Part shown: positions 6,573-35,775 of the stretch, in pieces
Layout of the letters: every line of letters begins with the position of its first letter
How positions within the stretch are numbered: position 1 is the first letter of the stretch
DNA from: Crocinitomix sp.
GTDB lineage: Bacteria; Bacteroidota; Bacteroidia; Flavobacteriales_D; Crocinitomicaceae
DNA: 64,000 nt
Assembly: GCA_013138735.1 (NCBI GenBank)
Contig: WTCE01000044.1
Coordinates: forward strand, 1-64,000
Direction of reading: 5' to 3'
Notes under the pieces: model-generated
What the model saw: the letters and a program-made list of their open reading frames with translations, nothing else
Told to the model about the DNA's origin: nothing
Database searches by the model: none
Position numbers and translations under genes: made by a program

Positions 6573-6671
6573 AAGCAATTTAATTGAAAAATCATCTCTG
6601 GCTAAAAAAGACCTAAACACCTCTCTAAATCTTTTAGAACCTAAACCGTTTAAACATTCGATCCCTCAGTT

Positions 6672-6688
6672 TTGGCACAGCATTTGCA
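6672..6688 (+). promoter_or_regulatory. Sigma-54 (RpoN)-type -24/-12 promoter
   Basis: The sequence TTGGCACAGCATTTGCA matches the sigma-54 consensus TTGGCACG-N4-TTGCA with one substitution. The invariant GG and GC are separated by exactly 10 nt. It lies 90 bp upstream of the ATG at 6778 and in the same orientation, so transcription would begin near 6699. This places the small secreted protein, and probably the LpoB-like lipoprotein behind it, under an activator-dependent promoter. The match is seen in the sequence; its use is inferred. Confidence 0.6.
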
Positions 6689-6777
6689 CTTTGATTAGTG
6701 AACATAAAAAATAGACTTGAGTAGGGGGACGCAATTATCAACACGATTCTCTACCAACAACAATAAAAATTGAAGTT

Positions 6778-7173
6778 ATGAAAAAAGCAAAACACATATT
6801 AGCAGGATTTTTAATCTTATCATCAGTTGGATCAATAGCACAAGAGTTGGCTCCGGATCAAAATCCGAATTATCAAAACAGTGCAGAAAAATATGCAGAA
6901 AGATCAGCAGAGTTAACCGCTACACAAAGCGAAACCACACATGACACTTATAAAGCATATGACTATAGAGAAGCGAAAGCTGAGAAAAAACAAGAACGGA
7001 AAGACCGTCAACATGAGTTACGCAAATTAAGAATGCAAAACCGCTACAGATGTGGTTCTAACAGATATTATAATAACGGATATCCAAATGGGAATTACAA
7101 CAACCAATATTATAACAACAGTAATTACGGATTACCAAGTTGCGGAACAGGACTATTTTATCCATTTCACTAA
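6778..7173 (+). CDS. Small secreted protein with charged core and Tyr/Asn-rich tail, 131 aa
   Basis: A clear signal peptide (MKKAKHILAGFLILSSVGSIA) precedes a charged, probably helical middle (residues ~60-92, rich in K/E/R). The tail is low in complexity and rich in Asn, Tyr and Gly with two cysteines (residues ~95-131). No family is recognised. It is the first gene after the sigma-54-type promoter, 52 bp before the LpoB-like gene, so it probably shares a transcript and an envelope role with it. Confidence 0.6.
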   Translation: MKKAKHILAGFLILSSVGSIAQELAPDQNPNYQNSAEKYAERSAELTATQSETTHDTYKAYDYREAKAEKKQERKDRQHELRKLRMQNRYRCGSNRYYNNGYPNGNYNNQYYNNSNYGLPSCGTGLFYPFH

Positions 7174-7225
7174 ATTGCACTCCGAATAAACAGTAAAAAA
7201 AAATTAACGATAAAAACATAAGATC

Positions 7226-7813
7226 ATGAAAACTTTAAAATTTAACTTATTCTTTGCAGTCATACTTGCATTTTCTGTGCAAAGCTGTATGAGAAGCGTA
7301 TCGCGTGTTGATCCAGATAAAGAAATAGACCTCAGTGGAAGATGGAATGATGTAGATTCTAAACTTACGGCTGACGCCATGATTGATCAAGTTTTAGGTG
7401 AAATTTGGTTAAAGAAACACATGACTGAAAAGAAAGAAAAGCCAGTTGTGATTGTAGGATTCGTTAAAAATAAAAGTCACGAACACATAGATGCTGAAAC
7501 GTTTATGAAAGATATTGAAAAGGCTTTTATTATGTCGCAAAAAGTACGCTTAGTACAAGGCGGTGAGAAACGAGATGCTATTCGTGGCGAGCGTGCCGAT
7601 CAACAAGATAATTCGTCTGTTTCTACCATGAAAAAATGGGGATTAGAAGTTGGAGCGGATTATATGCTGCAAGGTTCTATCAATTCAATTGTAGATGCCA
7701 TAGATCGTAAAAAGGTCGTTTTTTACCAAATTGATTTAGAATTAACCAATATGCAAACGAATGAAATTGTTTGGATTGGCGACAAAAAAATCAAGAAGTT
7801 TGTTAAAAACTAG
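7226..7813 (+). CDS. LpoB-like lipoprotein (penicillin-binding protein activator family), 195 aa
   Basis: The signal peptide ends in a lipobox with C21 (VQSC). The remainder fits the LpoB family. It has the LSGRWND start of the domain, PVVIVGFVKNKSHEHIDAETFMKDIEKAF, the Gly-Ala-Asp-Tyr-hydrophobic segment (VGADYMLQGSINS), and the terminal ELTNMQTNEIVWIGDKKIKKF. In gammaproteobacteria LpoB activates PBP1b from the outer membrane. Bacteroidota homologues are common, but I know of no fixed function for them. It lies between a small secreted protein and a COG3014-type lipoprotein, and a terminator follows at 7933. Confidence 0.85.
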   Translation: MKTLKFNLFFAVILAFSVQSCMRSVSRVDPDKEIDLSGRWNDVDSKLTADAMIDQVLGEIWLKKHMTEKKEKPVVIVGFVKNKSHEHIDAETFMKDIEKAFIMSQKVRLVQGGEKRDAIRGERADQQDNSSVSTMKKWGLEVGADYMLQGSINSIVDAIDRKKVVFYQIDLELTNMQTNEIVWIGDKKIKKFVKN

Positions 7814-29790: not shown

Positions 29791-30155
29791 TATTGCACTT
29801 CTAGTTTAGCACGTTCGAACGAAATTTCACCCGAAACATATTCATCATCCCAGGTTAAAAATCTAAAAATAATTCCACCTTCAACCGTTTCAAATTCACT
29901 CCAATGCTCATCAAAAGCCAAATGACGTTGCCAAGTATGTGCCACCATAATTTTAAAAATAGGATCTTGCATGGTGCTTAAACATGCAGCCGCAATCATT
30001 TGATCAGCATTACCTGTTTGTTCCACCTTAAGCACCTCAAATTGATCTAGCTCGGTAAAATAATAGTAGATATCTTCTTGCATGTCACGCAAATCAGTTC
30101 CAAATGAAGGTTTAATGTCTGAAGGGAGTTCGGCTATTTTATCTTTGAGAGTCAT
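29790..30155 (-). CDS. Conserved-looking small cytosolic protein, 121 aa
   Basis: It has no signal peptide and no membrane segment. Features seen are QEDIYYYFTELDQFEVLKVEQTGN, AACLSTMQDPIFKIMVAHTWQRHLAF and a beta-rich C-terminus. I do not recognise the family. Its stop overlaps the start of the flavoprotein gene by one base, which suggests a shared pathway or complex. Confidence 0.55.
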   Translation of the reverse strand: MTLKDKIAELPSDIKPSFGTDLRDMQEDIYYYFTELDQFEVLKVEQTGNADQMIAAACLSTMQDPIFKIMVAHTWQRHLAFDEHWSEFETVEGGIIFRFLTWDDEYVSGEISFERAKLEVQ

Positions 30156-30320
30156 TTTTAGTGTTATGTGTACAGTATTATGAATGGAGCACTATTTCAA
30201 TTTAAAATTAGTATTGTGTATGGATGGCGAAGATAGTCAAATTGAAAAGTACATCACACGTTACACTTAAAACATAAAACTGCTTTAAACTTAACACTGT
30301 ATTTTTGCAAAGCAAAAATA

Positions 30321-30980
30321 CTAAGCTTTTTTGAAGCTAAATATTTTGGTACCAACATACTCGACTGGAACACCTGCTTTAACATTATAACGCATAGTTT
30401 TAGCTGCTTTAATTGCTTCGCGAATTAAATATTTACTCCCACTATTCGATTGATTAGGATCAAGCATTGTTTTGACAACAAAACCATTGGCATCTACCCA
30501 TAACTTTAAGGCAATTTCACCCTCAACTTGCATATTACTGTCAAAATTTGGCTTTTTAAGGATAGCACGATTTGCATTGCCATGTTCATTTGGCCCTAAA
30601 TCAATAATGTCGTCACCTTCCGTGTCTCCAAACGCTGGCCCGTCTACTTTTCCGTCAGATGGATTAAAATTAAACGCATTATCTACCTGAATTGAACTGC
30701 TTGGTTCAGCTCTTACACTTGGCTCGTTTTGAACCGCAATAGTTGAAACCATTTCTTTATTTGCATTATTCGGTGCATCACTCGTTGCTCCAGAAGAAGA
30801 CGATTCAATGAAACTAACTTCAACCAATGTTTCGATTGGTTCTTCAGCAACAACTTTCTTGACAGGAGAATCTAAACTCACTAGCAAAAAGAAAAGGATC
30901 GATAACATAATAAAGATTGCCACTGCATAAAACGCATGTTGGTGTTCTTTCTCTTTCAAATAAAGCAATGGATTTTTCAT
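30321..30980 (-). CDS. TonB-like energy-transducer-family protein, 219 aa
   Basis: A single N-terminal membrane helix (residues ~17-35) is followed by a disordered Ser/Asn/Glu linker. The C-terminal domain has the TonB fold pattern: VEGEIALKLWVDANGFVVKTML, then a helix with LIREAIKAAKTMRYNVKAG, then a closing strand. Classical TonB is proline-rich in the linker and contains a YP motif; both are weak here. It may serve a specific receptor or a non-transport envelope role. No exbB or exbD is near. It sits at the left edge of the repeat array. Confidence 0.7.
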   Translation of the reverse strand: MKNPLLYLKEKEHQHAFYAVAIFIMLSILFFLLVSLDSPVKKVVAEEPIETLVEVSFIESSSSGATSDAPNNANKEMVSTIAVQNEPSVRAEPSSSIQVDNAFNFNPSDGKVDGPAFGDTEGDDIIDLGPNEHGNANRAILKKPNFDSNMQVEGEIALKLWVDANGFVVKTMLDPNQSNSGSKYLIREAIKAAKTMRYNVKAGVPVEYVGTKIFSFKKA

Positions 30981-31079
30981 AATGATTTGTGTCTATATAA
31001 TCATTACGGTAGGTGGGGTTACAAAGTTACTTGTAGCTTGGTATTAAACACTTGTATCCATTCGGATCAAGAACTAGCT

Positions 31080-31277
31080 CCGCAGGGTTTGCAACCCTGC
31101 GTAACATTTCAAATAAAAAATTTGTAACTCCCTAAAAGCCCAAGTTACAATTTTCACTAAATTAGATCGAAGATGGCAGAAGACGAACAAAGGACTCTTA
31201 TTAATTCATAATGTTTTTAGAATTACATTTCCATATAATTTATGTTATTCCGCAGGGTTACAAACCCAGCGGAGCGG
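31080..31277 (+). repeat. Array repeat copy A (two hairpins)
   Basis: It starts with a perfect hairpin CGCAGGGTT-TGC-AACCCTGCG (31081-31101). Next comes a unit beginning CAAGTTACAATTTTCAC (31141), and it ends in a second hairpin at 31250-31272 and GGAGCGG. The part from 31141 on is closely similar to copies B and C. The upstream part matches only copy C. A promoter-like TAAATTAG lies at 31158-31165. Confidence 0.75.
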
Positions 31278-31332
31278 TTATAGATGCATACCTCCAGAGA
31301 ATAATCCTAAAACAATGGCTTAAATTTCTATT

Positions 31333-31693
31333 ATGAAAAAAAAAAAAAAAGGACTTATGCTTTCATGATTCAGGCTTAGAAAGGATTAATATTGATTTTG
31401 ATAAAAAAAGCATTGATTTTGAGATTGAAATGTATAATGAAGAAAAAGACGATTTTGATTATTTGAAATTGAACTGTATAAACCCTTATGATTTTGAAAT
31501 CATAAATAAGCTTAAAATAATAGATTATTCGGCTGTAATCAAAGATTTAACAATAGATCAAATAACTTTAGGTGGGGTGGAATTAGTATTGAATGTAAGC
31601 ACCGATAAGAATGGCTATATTGAAATAAGGTTGAAATCAGAGGAGGTTCTTTTGGAAGAAATAAGGACTTCACAAAATCCCACAGATAATTAA
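31333..31693 (+). pseudogene. Small orphan gene with frameshift in a 15-A tract
   Basis: ATG at 31333 is followed by 15 A (31336-31350). Read literally, the frame stops at a TGA after five lysines, Gly, Leu, Met, Leu, Ser. If the tract had 14 A, the same ATG would open a 119-residue acidic protein (DLCFHDSGLERINIDFD... ...TSQNPTDN) ending at 31693. The open part without a frameshift starts at ATG 31430 and gives 87 residues. The ATG at 31333 lies 61 nt after the hairpin, matching genes 2 and 3 of the array (54 and 59 nt), so it is the likely start. No family is recognised; the small, acidic, single-domain look would fit an immunity protein. Confidence 0.55.
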
Positions 31694-31705
31694 AAAAAAA
31701 AAAAC

Positions 31706-31848
31706 CAAGTTACAATTTTCACTAAATTTGATCAAAGGTCCCGTAACCCGAACAAAAAACTAACGGCTCTTATTAATTCATAATGTTTTTAGAATTACAT
31801 TTCAATATAATTTATGTTATTCCGCAGGGTTGCAAACCCAGCGGAGCG
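31706..31848 (+). repeat. Array repeat copy B
   Basis: It begins CAAGTTACAATTTTCACTAA, holds a promoter-like TAAATTTG box (31723-31730), and ends in the hairpin at 31822-31844. That hairpin is CCGC-A-GGGTT with AACCC-A-GCGG, with one A-A mismatch. It is nearly identical to copies A and C over about 140 bp. Unlike them, it lacks the upstream hairpin part and directly follows the T/A-rich tail of gene 1. Confidence 0.8.
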
Positions 31849-31897
31849 TGGGGTATCAAGAAGCAATTTCATCAGGAAATTAAACACAACAAGGCTT

Positions 31898-32569
31898 ATG
31901 ATTAAGAAACATTATATTTGCGAATTTAGCGATAATCCAAAGATTACCGGAGACATTTATTTATTTCAAGCTTCTGTAAATAATGATCAAACTTCTAAGC
32001 TTTTTATGTCATTAGAAAAGAATGTTGAATCCTCTATCATTGAGCCATTAACATGCTTTGAACTTAATGAAAACGCCATAATTACTGACTTTTTGTCCAT
32101 GAGTAGAATGAAGCCTGGGATGTTGATTTCAAATAAACTAAAAGAATTAATCACACAATTTACTTTACCTAAATGTGAGTTCATAGAATCTCTAATTTAT
32201 TTCGACAAGAGTCCCGAAAAAGCATTTTGGATGAACCTGTATGAAGAAATGTATAATTTCATTGACTACAATAAAACGGAATTTATAAAAAGTAAAAATT
32301 CAATTTTTGACAAAAACACAATTGAAAAGCTAGGTTTTTTATCAAAGAATGAGTTGATTAATCTTGTTAAAGAAAAGGATCTATTTGATCGCATATCACC
32401 ACTAAACGGTTACGTTTTTCAAGATGATTTCGTTACACAGACTGACATTTTTAGAATTGGGTTAATGGATCAAAATATTTATGTGTCCGAACGTCTAAAA
32501 GATAGAATTTTGCAAGAGAACCTTTCTGGGTTCCGTTTTATTGAAAAGTCACTCGTCAAGCCCCACTGA
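31898..32569 (+). CDS. Orphan immunity-like protein (DUF1629/Imm11-type ending), 223 aa
   Basis: The ATG at 31898 is chosen because the longer frame would translate through the repeat hairpin; it lies 54 nt after that hairpin. The protein has no signal peptide. The C-terminal TQTDIFRIGLMDQNIYVSERLKDRILQENLSGFRFIE (read in two parts) has the pattern Asp-[IV]-Phe-Arg ... [IV]-x-VSE-x-[LF]-K-x-x-[IL] ... G-[FL]-x-[FI]. I associate that pattern with DUF1629/Imm11-type immunity proteins of contact-dependent toxin systems. No toxin gene is near. The family assignment is from pattern memory and is moderate at best. Confidence 0.55.
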   Translation: MIKKHYICEFSDNPKITGDIYLFQASVNNDQTSKLFMSLEKNVESSIIEPLTCFELNENAIITDFLSMSRMKPGMLISNKLKELITQFTLPKCEFIESLIYFDKSPEKAFWMNLYEEMYNFIDYNKTEFIKSKNSIFDKNTIEKLGFLSKNELINLVKEKDLFDRISPLNGYVFQDDFVTQTDIFRIGLMDQNIYVSERLKDRILQENLSGFRFIEKSLVKPH

Positions 32570-32633
32570 TGAATAAAAAATCAAACGGAAATCCCACAAG
32601 GGCTTGGCATTTTGTTTTTTATTCACCCACTAG

Positions 32634-32841
32634 CTGCGTAAGGTTTGTAGCCCTATGTAACATCCCTAATAAAAGGAGTTTGTCATTCCTTAAAAGCCAA
32701 CTTACAATTTTTACTAAATTTGATCAAAGGTCCTGGAGCCCGAACAAAAAACTAATGACTCTCATTAAATGACAATGTTTTTAGAATTGCATTTCAATAT
32801 AATTTATGTTATTCCGCAGGGTTGCAAACCCAGCGGAGCGG
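32634..32841 (+). repeat. Array repeat copy C (full length, degenerate first hairpin)
   Basis: It starts with CTGCGTAAGGTTTGTAGCCC, a decayed version of the first hairpin of copy A. It continues with CTTAAAAGCCAACTTACAAT and a TAAATTTG box (32715-32722). It ends in the same hairpin as copy B (32814-32836) and GGAGCGG. With copy A it defines a full unit of about 200 bp. Confidence 0.75.
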
Positions 32842-32894
32842 AGAAGTTTAAGTTATAATTGACCCTACATATGTACCGTAATTAAAAATATTAG

Positions 32895-33107
32895 ATGAAA
32901 AATAAGTTTACAGAGAGATTAATAGAAATAGGGTGGGAAGAAATTAGATCAATGAATTTTTTGTTTAAAAAAAATAACGAATTCACACTATTTTTTTCAA
33001 GCTCTAGTTACATAGAACTATATCAAAATAACCAATTCAAGGATGAAAAATATTGTAAAGAAGTTGATGATTTAGATTCGTTCTTAAAAAAAAATGGATT
33101 ATTCTAA
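32895..33107 (+). CDS. Small orphan protein of the array, 70 aa
   Basis: The ATG lies 59 nt after the hairpin of copy C. The protein (MKNKFTERLIEIGWEEIRSM, then FLFKKNNEFTLFFSSSSYIELY and a final helix) has a helix-strand-strand-helix look and no signal peptide. No family is recognised. Its position and the CCCCACAGATAATTAAAA tail 24 bp after its stop, shared with gene 1, support it as a real cassette gene. After it, 33108-33279 holds only that tail and an imperfect CGCAG...CTGCG dyad at 33194-33214. Confidence 0.5.
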   Translation: MKNKFTERLIEIGWEEIRSMNFLFKKNNEFTLFFSSSSYIELYQNNQFKDEKYCKEVDDLDSFLKKNGLF

Positions 33108-33279
33108 ACTGTTCAAAAAGTCTTCATAAGACCCCACAGATAATTAAAATACTAAACACCAATTTCTACAATTTCATTTGAAAATCACAGCTTCGCAGTA
33201 GCTGTACTGCTGCGTTTGCTATTAGAAATAAAGGTTTTGAAAACAATAAGATTGTGATAAGACCTACTCAAAACCCCAC

Positions 33280-35775
33280 CTACCCATTCGGGTCCAAAAT
33301 CAAATCAATACGAACAATAGCATCTTGCAAATGATACTTACTCATCTTATCAGAAGTTCTACCAATCGCAGCTTTAATTTGTTTCTTCAACTCATTCAAT
33401 TCTGCACGAACAACTGAGCGGATGTCAGATTGACTCGCATCAACATTTGTACGAACGAAAAAACGACGGAACTGCGCAGGAATTTTCGTTTGTTCTTCTG
33501 TCATTAAAAAGGCCAAACGATCGATATGCGCCCGTTGCAAATTTCTGCGATATACGTCAATTGTACCGCCAGCTTTTAATTCAGTCCAAACGGAGGTTCT
33601 TAGATCTTCCATTAATTCAATAATAGAATAAGCCTGCGCTCCATTTACAGCTTCGTTTTCAATAGTTCGCGCTAGTCTTCCAAAATCTAAAAGGTTGGCT
33701 AATGTTTTCGCCTGCAACTTACGCATGCGCTCGATAGCTCCATCATATTCGATCTTATTAAAGATGTTTTGATCCAATAACCAAGTTGGTGTTTTAAATA
33801 ATTGCTCATCTAAGAATTGCATGGCACGTTCTTGCTTCTCTTTGGGAACATGTGTATAAACAGCACCTTCTTGCCCAAAGGCTTTGTAGTTTTCATAAAT
33901 ACCACCAACATTACCAGATACATGGCCCATATAGCGATTAAATTGTCCAACAACTTGATCATAGATTGCAGATAGATCCGCATAATTCTCGCCTTCTTTC
34001 CCAGTCCATTGAACTAAATTTGGCATAATCCGTTTTAAGTTTTTGATACCATATTCACTCGCTTTCATAGCGTCATCACCCAAATCTTCTGTTTGTGAAC
34101 TCGGATCAATTACACCAAATTGTTGTTTTCCAAAGCGGTATAAAGGATCGCCCGCATGTTCTAAAATCCATCCATCCAAGGTTGCTTTTTCATCCTTCGC
34201 ATTCTCTACATCTAAAATAGGACGGTATCCCCAATTGATTGAATACTTATCATAAATCCCAATATTCGGCATTAAAGCCACCCCTTTATCTTCGGGTTGC
34301 GCGATATAATTGAAACGGGCATAATCCATAATAGATGGCGCTGTTCCATAAACGTCTGTAAAGGTTGACGAGCGCAAAGAATCAACGGGATAAGCGACAC
34401 TGCTACCCATATTGTGCGGTAAACCTAAGGTATGTCCAACCTCATGGGCAGAAACAAATCGAATTAATCTACCCATTATTTCTTCTTCAAATTCCATCCC
34501 TCTAGCGTCCTCATTGATTGCTGCCGTTTGCACGAAAAACCAATTCTGTAACAAAGTCATTACATTATGATACCAGTTGATATCCGATTCAATAATCTCG
34601 CCACTTCGCGGATCACTTACATGTGGTCCATTTGCATTTGGAATTGGGGAAGCTAAATAACGTACGACAGAAAAACGCGCATCCTCAGGACTCCATTCTG
34701 GATCTTCTTCAGGTGTTGGTGCGTCCATTGCGATAATTGCATTTTTGAATCCTGCAGCTTCAAAAGCTACTTGCCAATCTTCAATTCCTAACTTCAAATA
34801 TTTGGCCCATTTCTTTGGTGTCGCTCTATCGATATAATAGATAATAGGTTTAACTGGCTCAACTAATTCGCCATTTTTAAATTTTTCCATATCCTCCGGC
34901 TTCACTTCTAATCGCCATCTGTCCAAATAGCGCACAGATTCACTTTTTTGAGCTTCTGAACCATAATCCGTTTGCGAAGAAGTAAACCAACCTACACGCT
35001 GATCAAAGTAACGGCGTTGCATAGGTACTTTTGGTAATAAAATCATTGAGTTACTAATTTCAACAGAAATAGAACCTAAACTTGAATTAGATGGAGGCGC
35101 ACTAGATGCATACGTTTTAACGTGGCGCGCTTCAATATTAATGGGGTAACTATTTACCTTTTCAATGTATGAACGATCGCCATCCAATCGTGATATTTTA
35201 TATCTTTTTCTTGTCCAAGAAGGTAAGCCGAGTGCGGCAATATCCGTAGAAAACAATTTTGTCACATTAATAACAACTGAACTTGAATCTTTGCTGTATG
35301 CTGCAACCGGAAACATATACATAATTGGCTCAAAATTCGAATTCATAACCGCCTCGTGAACGGGCAATGAATCTGCTGCTACTACGCGGTGAGAAACCAC
35401 CCGTAATAAGACATTGTCTTCTTTCCATTCCCAACGCAATACTTGCTCATTTTGCTTTCCGCCACCAAAACCTAGACCAGCGGCAGTTTTTGCAATTCGG
35501 GTTACCATTAGCATTTCTCTTCCAAACAAACTGTCCGGAATTTCATAGAAATAATCCTTGTCCACTTTATGAACACTAAACAAACCTTCATCTGTTTCAG
35601 CATCCTTTGTAATCACTTTAGAATAAGGCTTAATATCACCCTTTTTTGATGGTGGTGCTGCTTGTTCTGTGTCGTCTTTCTTTTTCTTCTTCTTATTTCT
35701 TTGCGCAAAACCGTCATTTGCAAATGAAACGACTGCTAATAGAATAAAAACTCGGATAATATGCTTCAACTTCAT
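33280..35775 (-). CDS. Zinc-dependent metalloprotease (DUF5117/DUF4953 type), 831 aa
   Basis: A signal peptide is followed by a lysine-rich linker (KKKKKDD). The N-terminal domain is of the DUF5117 type (GLFSVHKVDKDYFYEIPDS, FGREMLMVTRIAKT). The catalytic metzincin-like motif HEVGHTLGLPH is at residues 444-454, followed by a Met-turn in SIMDYARFNY (~477). The C-terminal part is of the DUF4953 type. Such ~800-residue proteases are widespread in Bacteroidota and are exported. Substrates are unknown. The stop codon lies in the inverted repeat that ends the cassette array. Confidence 0.88.
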   Translation of the reverse strand: MKLKHIIRVFILLAVVSFANDGFAQRNKKKKKKDDTEQAAPPSKKGDIKPYSKVITKDAETDEGLFSVHKVDKDYFYEIPDSLFGREMLMVTRIAKTAAGLGFGGGKQNEQVLRWEWKEDNVLLRVVSHRVVAADSLPVHEAVMNSNFEPIMYMFPVAAYSKDSSSVVINVTKLFSTDIAALGLPSWTRKRYKISRLDGDRSYIEKVNSYPINIEARHVKTYASSAPPSNSSLGSISVEISNSMILLPKVPMQRRYFDQRVGWFTSSQTDYGSEAQKSESVRYLDRWRLEVKPEDMEKFKNGELVEPVKPIIYYIDRATPKKWAKYLKLGIEDWQVAFEAAGFKNAIIAMDAPTPEEDPEWSPEDARFSVVRYLASPIPNANGPHVSDPRSGEIIESDINWYHNVMTLLQNWFFVQTAAINEDARGMEFEEEIMGRLIRFVSAHEVGHTLGLPHNMGSSVAYPVDSLRSSTFTDVYGTAPSIMDYARFNYIAQPEDKGVALMPNIGIYDKYSINWGYRPILDVENAKDEKATLDGWILEHAGDPLYRFGKQQFGVIDPSSQTEDLGDDAMKASEYGIKNLKRIMPNLVQWTGKEGENYADLSAIYDQVVGQFNRYMGHVSGNVGGIYENYKAFGQEGAVYTHVPKEKQERAMQFLDEQLFKTPTWLLDQNIFNKIEYDGAIERMRKLQAKTLANLLDFGRLARTIENEAVNGAQAYSIIELMEDLRTSVWTELKAGGTIDVYRRNLQRAHIDRLAFLMTEEQTKIPAQFRRFFVRTNVDASQSDIRSVVRAELNELKKQIKAAIGRTSDKMSKYHLQDAIVRIDLILDPNG

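Follow-up and report, generated by a model that had tools for sequence, protein, structure and literature searches.

Polyimmunity loci, rAID clusters, displaced Rhs tip arrays and hairpin-bearing transposon relics are the described systems that come closest to the locus reported here, and we compare it with each as described in the cited sources. Heterogeneous polyimmunity loci are co-oriented sets of small immunity genes with no toxin genes between them and with a content that varies between relatives; Imm11 is named among the families of both homogeneous and heterogeneous loci, which typically have small intergenic distances, probably form a single message and are thought to protect from the toxin tips of neighbours (PMC3482391). 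In rAID clusters, short orphan immunity genes are arrayed in one orientation and separated by conserved sequence, and some of these genes have been reported to be protective in experiments (PMC12247911). Such hoarding of antidotes against foreign toxins is best described in gut Bacteroidales, whose clusters include a tyrosine recombinase. Here we analyzed a 64,000-nt window, to which all plain coordinates refer, on a 107-kb contig (C162) of Crocinitomix sp. (G000, assembly of 6.84 Mb), and describe in it an island of about 2.2 kb (about 31077-33279) made of three units, each consisting of a repeat, a small gene and a tail. We consider it likely that the island is a polyimmunity locus of three Rhs-derived immunity genes, built by recombination behind repeats derived from a REP-associated tyrosine transposase (RAYT) element; a collection of the same kind seems here to have formed around pieces of another mobile element. 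The features of the island and its borders are as follows.

30321..30980, minus strand: left flanking host gene (219 aa), without a Pfam family, adjoining the right flanking gene in four relatives of the genus (G004, G006, G007 and G008)
31008..31020, no strand: left arm of a 13-bp inverted repeat, native intergenic DNA outside the insert that aligns with the intergenic region of G007 and G008 and, by eye, of G006
31055..31076, minus strand: decayed duplicate of the 831-aa host gene's 3' end, adjoining the left junction of the insert
31077..31275, plus strand: repeat unit 1, an internally deleted RAYT-type element with a left-end hairpin at 31077-31104 and a right-end hairpin at 31249-31275
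31333..31693, plus strand: gene 1, its frame open from 31352 to 31693
31659..31698, plus strand: tail 1, an Rhs-module 3' tail (profile score 40.5, rank 1 in the window)
31704..31847, plus strand: repeat unit 2, without a left end and meeting tail 1 in an A run; right-end hairpin at 31821-31847
31898..32569, plus strand: gene 2, Imm11 (PF07791) immunity protein
32542..32626, plus strand: tail 2 (profile score 35.8, rank 3) with a terminator-like inverted repeat (32570-32595 and 32600-32625)
32633..32839, plus strand: repeat unit 3, with a degenerate left-end hairpin near 32635-32657 and a right-end hairpin at 32813-32839
32895..33107, plus strand: gene 3 (70 aa), related to the small gene that directly follows an Rhs fragment on contig C174
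33113..33152, plus strand: tail 3 (profile score 38.9, rank 2)
33255..33279, plus strand: tail 4, truncated, closing the insert on the right (score of 19.7 with the half-tail profile, third in the window)
33272..33284, no strand: right arm of the 13-bp inverted repeat, formed by the end of tail 4 and the stop codon of the host gene
33280..35775, minus strand: right flanking host gene (831 aa; DUF5117, DUF5118 and DUF4953 Met-zincin), present in all nine genomes of the genus

By analogy, the island would work like rAID and polyimmunity loci; from the polyimmunity loci described so far it departs by its long, repeat-filled gaps. With heterogeneous polyimmunity loci (PMC3482391) it shares tandem, co-oriented small genes that include Imm11 and have no toxin gene among them (the immunity role of genes 1 and 3 being putative), and a content that differs between relatives; unlike those loci, it has long repeated leaders, module tails and intergenic gaps of 204 and 325 nt, which hold the repeats and which, together with the terminator-like inverted repeat behind gene 2, do not fit small spacing and a single message. 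No Rhs motif or toxin-size open reading frame (ORF) was seen between the three island genes, and no Rhs gene was found by eye among the ORFs of 27-37 kb of the window. In outline, the island recalls rAID clusters as an array of co-oriented short genes (about 70-223 codons, gene 3 falling under the 100-300 codons given for rAID genes), of which genes 1 and 3 have a putative immunity role; its intergenic repeats and tails are conserved among its own units. The island falls outside the rAID definition, because its contig has no tyrosine recombinase match (the genome has 17 to PF00589); its tails moreover come from Rhs modules and its repeats from a RAYT element. An earlier sequence-only reading of the window had noted that no integrase is present, and this held for the whole 107-kb contig, on which neither an integrase-family nor a Y1 transposase match was found; attC sites of an integron were likewise not recognised, by eye only. 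Displaced Rhs tip arrays also keep Rhs C-terminal modules as arrays apart from the core (PMC2935791), whereas the island keeps the immunity end only. RAYT elements and REPINs resemble it in their inverted hairpin pair, in hairpins that lie between genes and in the Y1 gene that such hairpins enclose elsewhere in this genome, and differ from it in that its 140-200 bp unit is confined to the island with each copy at a near-fixed distance before a gene (PMC6006769, PMC3733652). Among the papers listed in a literature search on these subjects, none names the transposase, which is no proof that a link of orphan immunity or polyimmunity to a RAYT is absent from print.

The strongest pointer to Rhs modules came from the tails. 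As the sequence-only reading had stated, related CCCAC-type tails follow the genes: genes 1 and 3 share the same 17 bases, CCCACAGATAATTAAAA, at 31679-31695 and 33133-33149, and gene 2 is followed by a relative of them, CCCACTGATGAATAAAA, at 32562. Allowing up to three mismatches, this pattern had 19 matches in five of the nine genomes of the genus (one genome per species, our own included), two of them in G007, compared to a single match for the reversed control. The Crocinitomix genome itself gave 11 matches (reversed control, 0), of which two are the tails of genes 1 and 3 and one lies on C25, 646 bases from the contig start, with no Rhs gene visible. The remaining eight are found behind an Rhs protein and one or two small genes that follow it; one of these Rhs proteins is full-length (2534 aa), and all eight carry the NCBIfam model Rhs_assc_core at or above its curated cut-off. 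Tail 2 was too divergent for the pattern yet was found by a profile trained on 11 tails outside the window (eight from the same genome, one from G001 and two from G008; nine distinct), which over the 64 kb placed the three island tails on top with 40.5, 38.9 and 35.8 bits; the next site scored 6.8, and the best score in 30 Markov controls of window length was 21.1. A half-tail profile limited to columns 1-25 put the right edge of the island (33255-33279) in third place at 19.7 bits, followed by tail 2 with 17.3 and the next site with 12.0, while the best score of 2.3-kb random sequence in 300 trials was 15.0. Because the tails in this genome follow Rhs modules, the island genes are tied to the immunity ends of such toxin-immunity modules, with which they share module-flanking DNA. 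Altogether, these comparisons make it very likely that the island is a set of orphan Rhs-type immunity genes, and the module tail offers a marker for finding family-less orphan immunity genes in this genus.

Of the three genes, gene 2 matched Imm11 (PF07791) in Pfam with an E value of 1.9e-10 and 40.8 bits (cut-off, 22.1); it has relatives in 5 of 150 genomes of the family, our own included, and a single one, at 27% identity, in a pattern-based scan of 84,980 genomes. A relative of gene 3 lies on C174 (E 4.0e-6 in the genome search; 25/71 identical) and starts 16 nt after the stop codon of an Rhs fragment; this kinship with an Rhs-linked gene is shown at the level of sequence. For gene 1, a search of 399 genomes of the order returned one relative outside our own genome, in G074 (E 2.2e-4; 26/75 identical), which stands among small genes and copies of a 154-bp repeat. 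Upstream of them is a 2539-aa gene with Rhs motifs, separated from them by a gene for an IS-type transposase. We infer that genes 1 and 3 are immunity genes as well. The phrase "three orphan small genes", which the sequence-only reading had used, is apt for genes 1 and 3 in that neither has a Pfam family; it has to be amended for gene 2, which has one, and for gene 1, whose frame is interrupted behind the first ATG by a run of 15 A (31336-31350) that could reflect an assembly error, a broken gene or a switch. Each leader, from the hairpin to the ATG, could be taken for the final codons of a toxin gene that was lost, the stop lying 9-14 nt ahead of the start codon. That they are remnants of toxin gene 3' ends is only suggestive, because short open stretches are common by chance and the frame of the gene 3 leader has a further stop. 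With these assignments, three small genes, two of them family-less, get candidate Rhs toxin-tip partners, and the origin of such genes becomes testable. At the G074 locus (C1:1030027-1047106, L161/L111), a large Rhs-motif gene is followed by some 16 same-strand small ORFs, two of which encode DUF4160 and helix-turn-helix proteins, and the repeat of that array occurs in four copies of 115-154 nt that are 95-98% alike.

A similar organization was found in another species of the genus, G002, which has two small-gene arrays, on C1 (L145) and C7 (L144), with a 100-210 bp repeat of their own. All seven copies of this repeat in the nine genomes searched belong to G002, three on C1, three on C7 and one on C8; six of them stand 9-76 nt before a small gene, the seventh sits behind an Rhs-motif ORF and another small gene, and both arrays end in an Rhs tail. 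The arrays of the window and of G002 have their plan in common, not their sequence. Of the cassette system that the sequence-only reading had proposed, the units of repeat, gene and tail and the existence of repeat-led arrays in another species stood up, and the inverted repeat as a recombination border and full repeat copies beside genes elsewhere did not.

The three repeat copies, at 31128-31276, 31700-31848 and 32692-32840, each end in a hairpin before a gene, in agreement with the sequence-only reading. Ungapped identity to the middle copy is 70% and 91%, and gapped identity between the three is 81-91%; on their left side, copies 1 and 3 also include an inverted second hairpin (degenerate in the latter copy), which brings the full unit to about 200 bp. 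Counted from the last base of the hairpin foot (GGAGC), the ATG follows after 57 nt in gene 1, 50 nt in gene 2 (ATG at 31898) and 55 nt in gene 3, the same geometry as the 61, 54 and 59 nt reported earlier from a point 4 nt further upstream. The proposal that the repeats supply expression signals was not borne out for promoters, since a Bacteroidota-type consensus did not rise above shuffled controls in nine of nine leaders. When the 6.84-Mb assembly was searched, the full unit of about 140 bp was confined to the island, and the other 11 of the 14 matches covered 25-60 nt of a hairpin end; across the genus, copy 2 was found at full length in its own genome only, with two short matches in G005. 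Copies of the whole unit beside further genes, for which that reading had suggested a search, were thus not found in the assembly, and just the hairpin end is scattered. This hairpin occurs at 23 sites (44 matches, both strands counted; reversed control, 0), namely four in the island, five on C123, two on C96 and 12 in gaps beside other genes, the last judged by eye from ORF tables and without a statistical test. The left-end hairpin is present in 4 of 150 genomes of the family.

The origin of the repeats was apparent from C123, where two oppositely oriented hairpins (L025, about 6625-7525) enclose a gene for a Y1 (IS200-like, RAYT) transposase, an arrangement known for REPIN-like elements. 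An open stretch of 124 residues of this gene scored 31.5 bits and the 67-aa ORF inside it 18.2 (cut-off, 23); the ORF ends at a stop inside the conserved region, and the copy looks decayed. The five C123 sites belong to this single transposase copy and to two genes (180 and 209 aa) that such hairpins bracket. On C96, two hairpins bracket an internally deleted relic that has in common with the window repeat the hairpins and, by eye, the sequence beside the left one. The matches on C96 and C98, about 60 nt long, lie on the opposite strand; therefore, one end of the element is an inverted copy of the other. Because matching hairpins enclose the Y1 gene on C123 and a deleted relative on C96, we identify the window units, by comparison of these loci, as internally deleted relics of an IS200-like (RAYT) element, of which units 1 and 3 keep the inverted pair of end hairpins (the left one of unit 3 being degenerate) and unit 2 has lost the left end. 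Besides the C123 copy, the genome has four Y1 transposase matches. The foot of the window hairpin reads GGAG(C) on one strand, by eye, compared with the GT[AG]G tetranucleotide of REPIN-like elements, and atypical secondary structures are on record for the Bacteroidetes RAYT subclass 2.6 (PMC6006769). A second hairpin family, of the GCAGGATT...AATCCTGC type, is scattered through the same genome (L028, L033 and L034).

In the history that we propose, Rhs tips would have been displaced together with their immunity genes, and the toxin part, which is presumably gone, would have been lost up to its last codons. An immunity gene with its tail would then have been joined behind a RAYT-derived repeat, and homologous recombination, acting between repeats as well as between tails, may have added further units and swapped them, a mode of assembly to which we give an even chance. 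The whole block would have entered the 3' end of a host gene. By analogy with the known loci, the island proteins would protect the cell by neutralizing toxin tips delivered by neighbouring bacteria.

Several observations weigh against this account. No recombination event was observed, and gene 1 may be broken. Genes 1 and 3 have no Pfam family and no NCBIfam match at cut-off, and their structure models are too weak for use (mean pLDDT, 45.4 for gene 1 and 68.9 for gene 3); matches were found in 3 (gene 3) and 2 (gene 1) of the 399 genomes of the order, our own included, and the link of gene 1 depends on the single relative at E 2.2e-4. For the truncated tail at the right edge, half-tail controls of 64 kb had a mean best score of 14.3, and 1 of 40, at 20.7, exceeded the edge score. 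As to G002, the repeat stands directly in front of just three of the five genes in each array, the C8 copy has no gene-size ORF directly behind it, and the window repeat has no similarity to the G002 repeat (z ≤ 1.5 in 18 comparisons); because none of the ten array genes reaches the Pfam cut-off, their immunity role is read from tail and context.

The repeats might instead be bystanders, RAYT elements that had inserted into the gaps of an existing immunity array and were multiplied along with it. We regard this as possible if on balance unlikely: hairpins lie in many intergenic gaps of the genome, the usual location of REP elements (PMC3733652), and a full unit in the island only is as expected from one insertion duplicated locally, but the repeat precedes each of the three genes in one orientation and at 50-57 nt, and G002 shows the same plan with another element.

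We hold it to be unlikely that the RAYT (Y1) transposase is itself the mover and carries genes that land between its left and right ends, or behind a right end, as single-stranded DNA, which would make the units mobile REP cassettes. The left junction of the island does lie at a left-end hairpin, and C123 offers both arrangements (L026, 6591-7402, and L025, 6625-8222): the 209-aa gene has a left-end hairpin on one side and a right-end hairpin on the other, with no transposase gene between them, and the 180-aa gene stands 45 nt behind one right end and is followed by another. A related picture is seen on C11 of G002 (L146, 6041-7990), where a small gene lies behind a Y1 transposase gene (32.1 bits; cut-off, 23) and is itself followed by a second occurrence, at 94%, of 33 nt from the transposase region; an Rhs tail comes about 540 nt further along. 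However, the island closes on the right with a tail instead of a right end, and more than half of the hairpin sites (12 of 23) fall in gaps next to other genes. The C123 transposase copy looks decayed, the two bracketed genes match no Pfam family at cut-off and show no Rhs tail by eye, and neither excision nor an empty repeat site was seen. That RAYT/REP ends form a gene-capture system which builds antidote arrays without an integron or a tyrosine recombinase seems to us rather improbable; if it were true, the island, the two bracketed C123 genes and the G002 C11 locus would be stages of one process.

The gap between the two flanking genes is 2299 bp wide in the window, compared to 96 bp in G008, 98 bp in G007, about 113 bp in G004 and 472 bp in G006; the remaining four relatives showed no left flanking gene within the 1.5 kb examined. 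The comparison between related genomes, also suggested by the sequence-only reading, thus shows the array missing where the flanking genes adjoin, and because these genes stand side by side without it in four relatives of the same genus, we conclude that the island is an insertion. The region 31055-31076, beside the left-end hairpin, is identical at 15 of 20 positions to 33281-33300, a level that none of 5000 base shuffles of the 57-nt region attained, and we infer from this decayed copy of its 3' end that the insert entered the last codons of the 831-aa gene. The 3' end of this gene is accordingly present on both sides of the island, decayed on the left, and the intact right end is not explained by insertion. 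Import of the host gene 3' end from one relative was also considered and set aside, as identity along the gene gives no clear switch.

The inverted repeat at the borders, which had been described as a perfect 11-bp pair striking for its position at the very edges, is indeed perfect and measures 13 bp (31008-31020 and 33272-33284). Its length alone is not unusual, because the same 4.5 kb hold a second perfect 13-bp pair and a perfect 12-bp pair. We rejected it as a recombination border, since the left arm is native DNA that can be aligned in relatives and the right arm combines the truncated tail with the stop codon of the host gene; the pair is probably a coincidence. An Rfam search of 30000-34500 gave one sub-threshold match only, to a microRNA family at the terminator-like inverted repeat, which was rejected.

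It is very unlikely that a tyrosine recombinase from elsewhere in the genome joined the cassettes at their tails, as proposed for rAID clusters: the right edge does break within a tail, at CCCCAC, four Rhs modules (two on C174, one on C104 and one on C111) are preceded by tyrosine recombinase gene pairs, one C174 pair being recognised by Pfam as well, and a further pair lies downstream of the full-length Rhs gene on C35 (L138), but none of the 17 PF00589 matches is on the contig of the island, its three inner tails show, by eye, no shared cut point, tail 2 is whole, terminator included, and the second recombinase on C104 is interrupted by a stop.

As an observation in its own right, the modules behind such recombinase pairs, on C174 (two, L107), C104 (L143) and C111 (L140), each comprise an Rhs fragment, a small gene and a tail. 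A protein of about 515 aa also precedes modules on C174, C104 and C85 (L139), and the one tested, from C174, has no Pfam family. The whole looks like a tandem mobile unit carrying Rhs tips.

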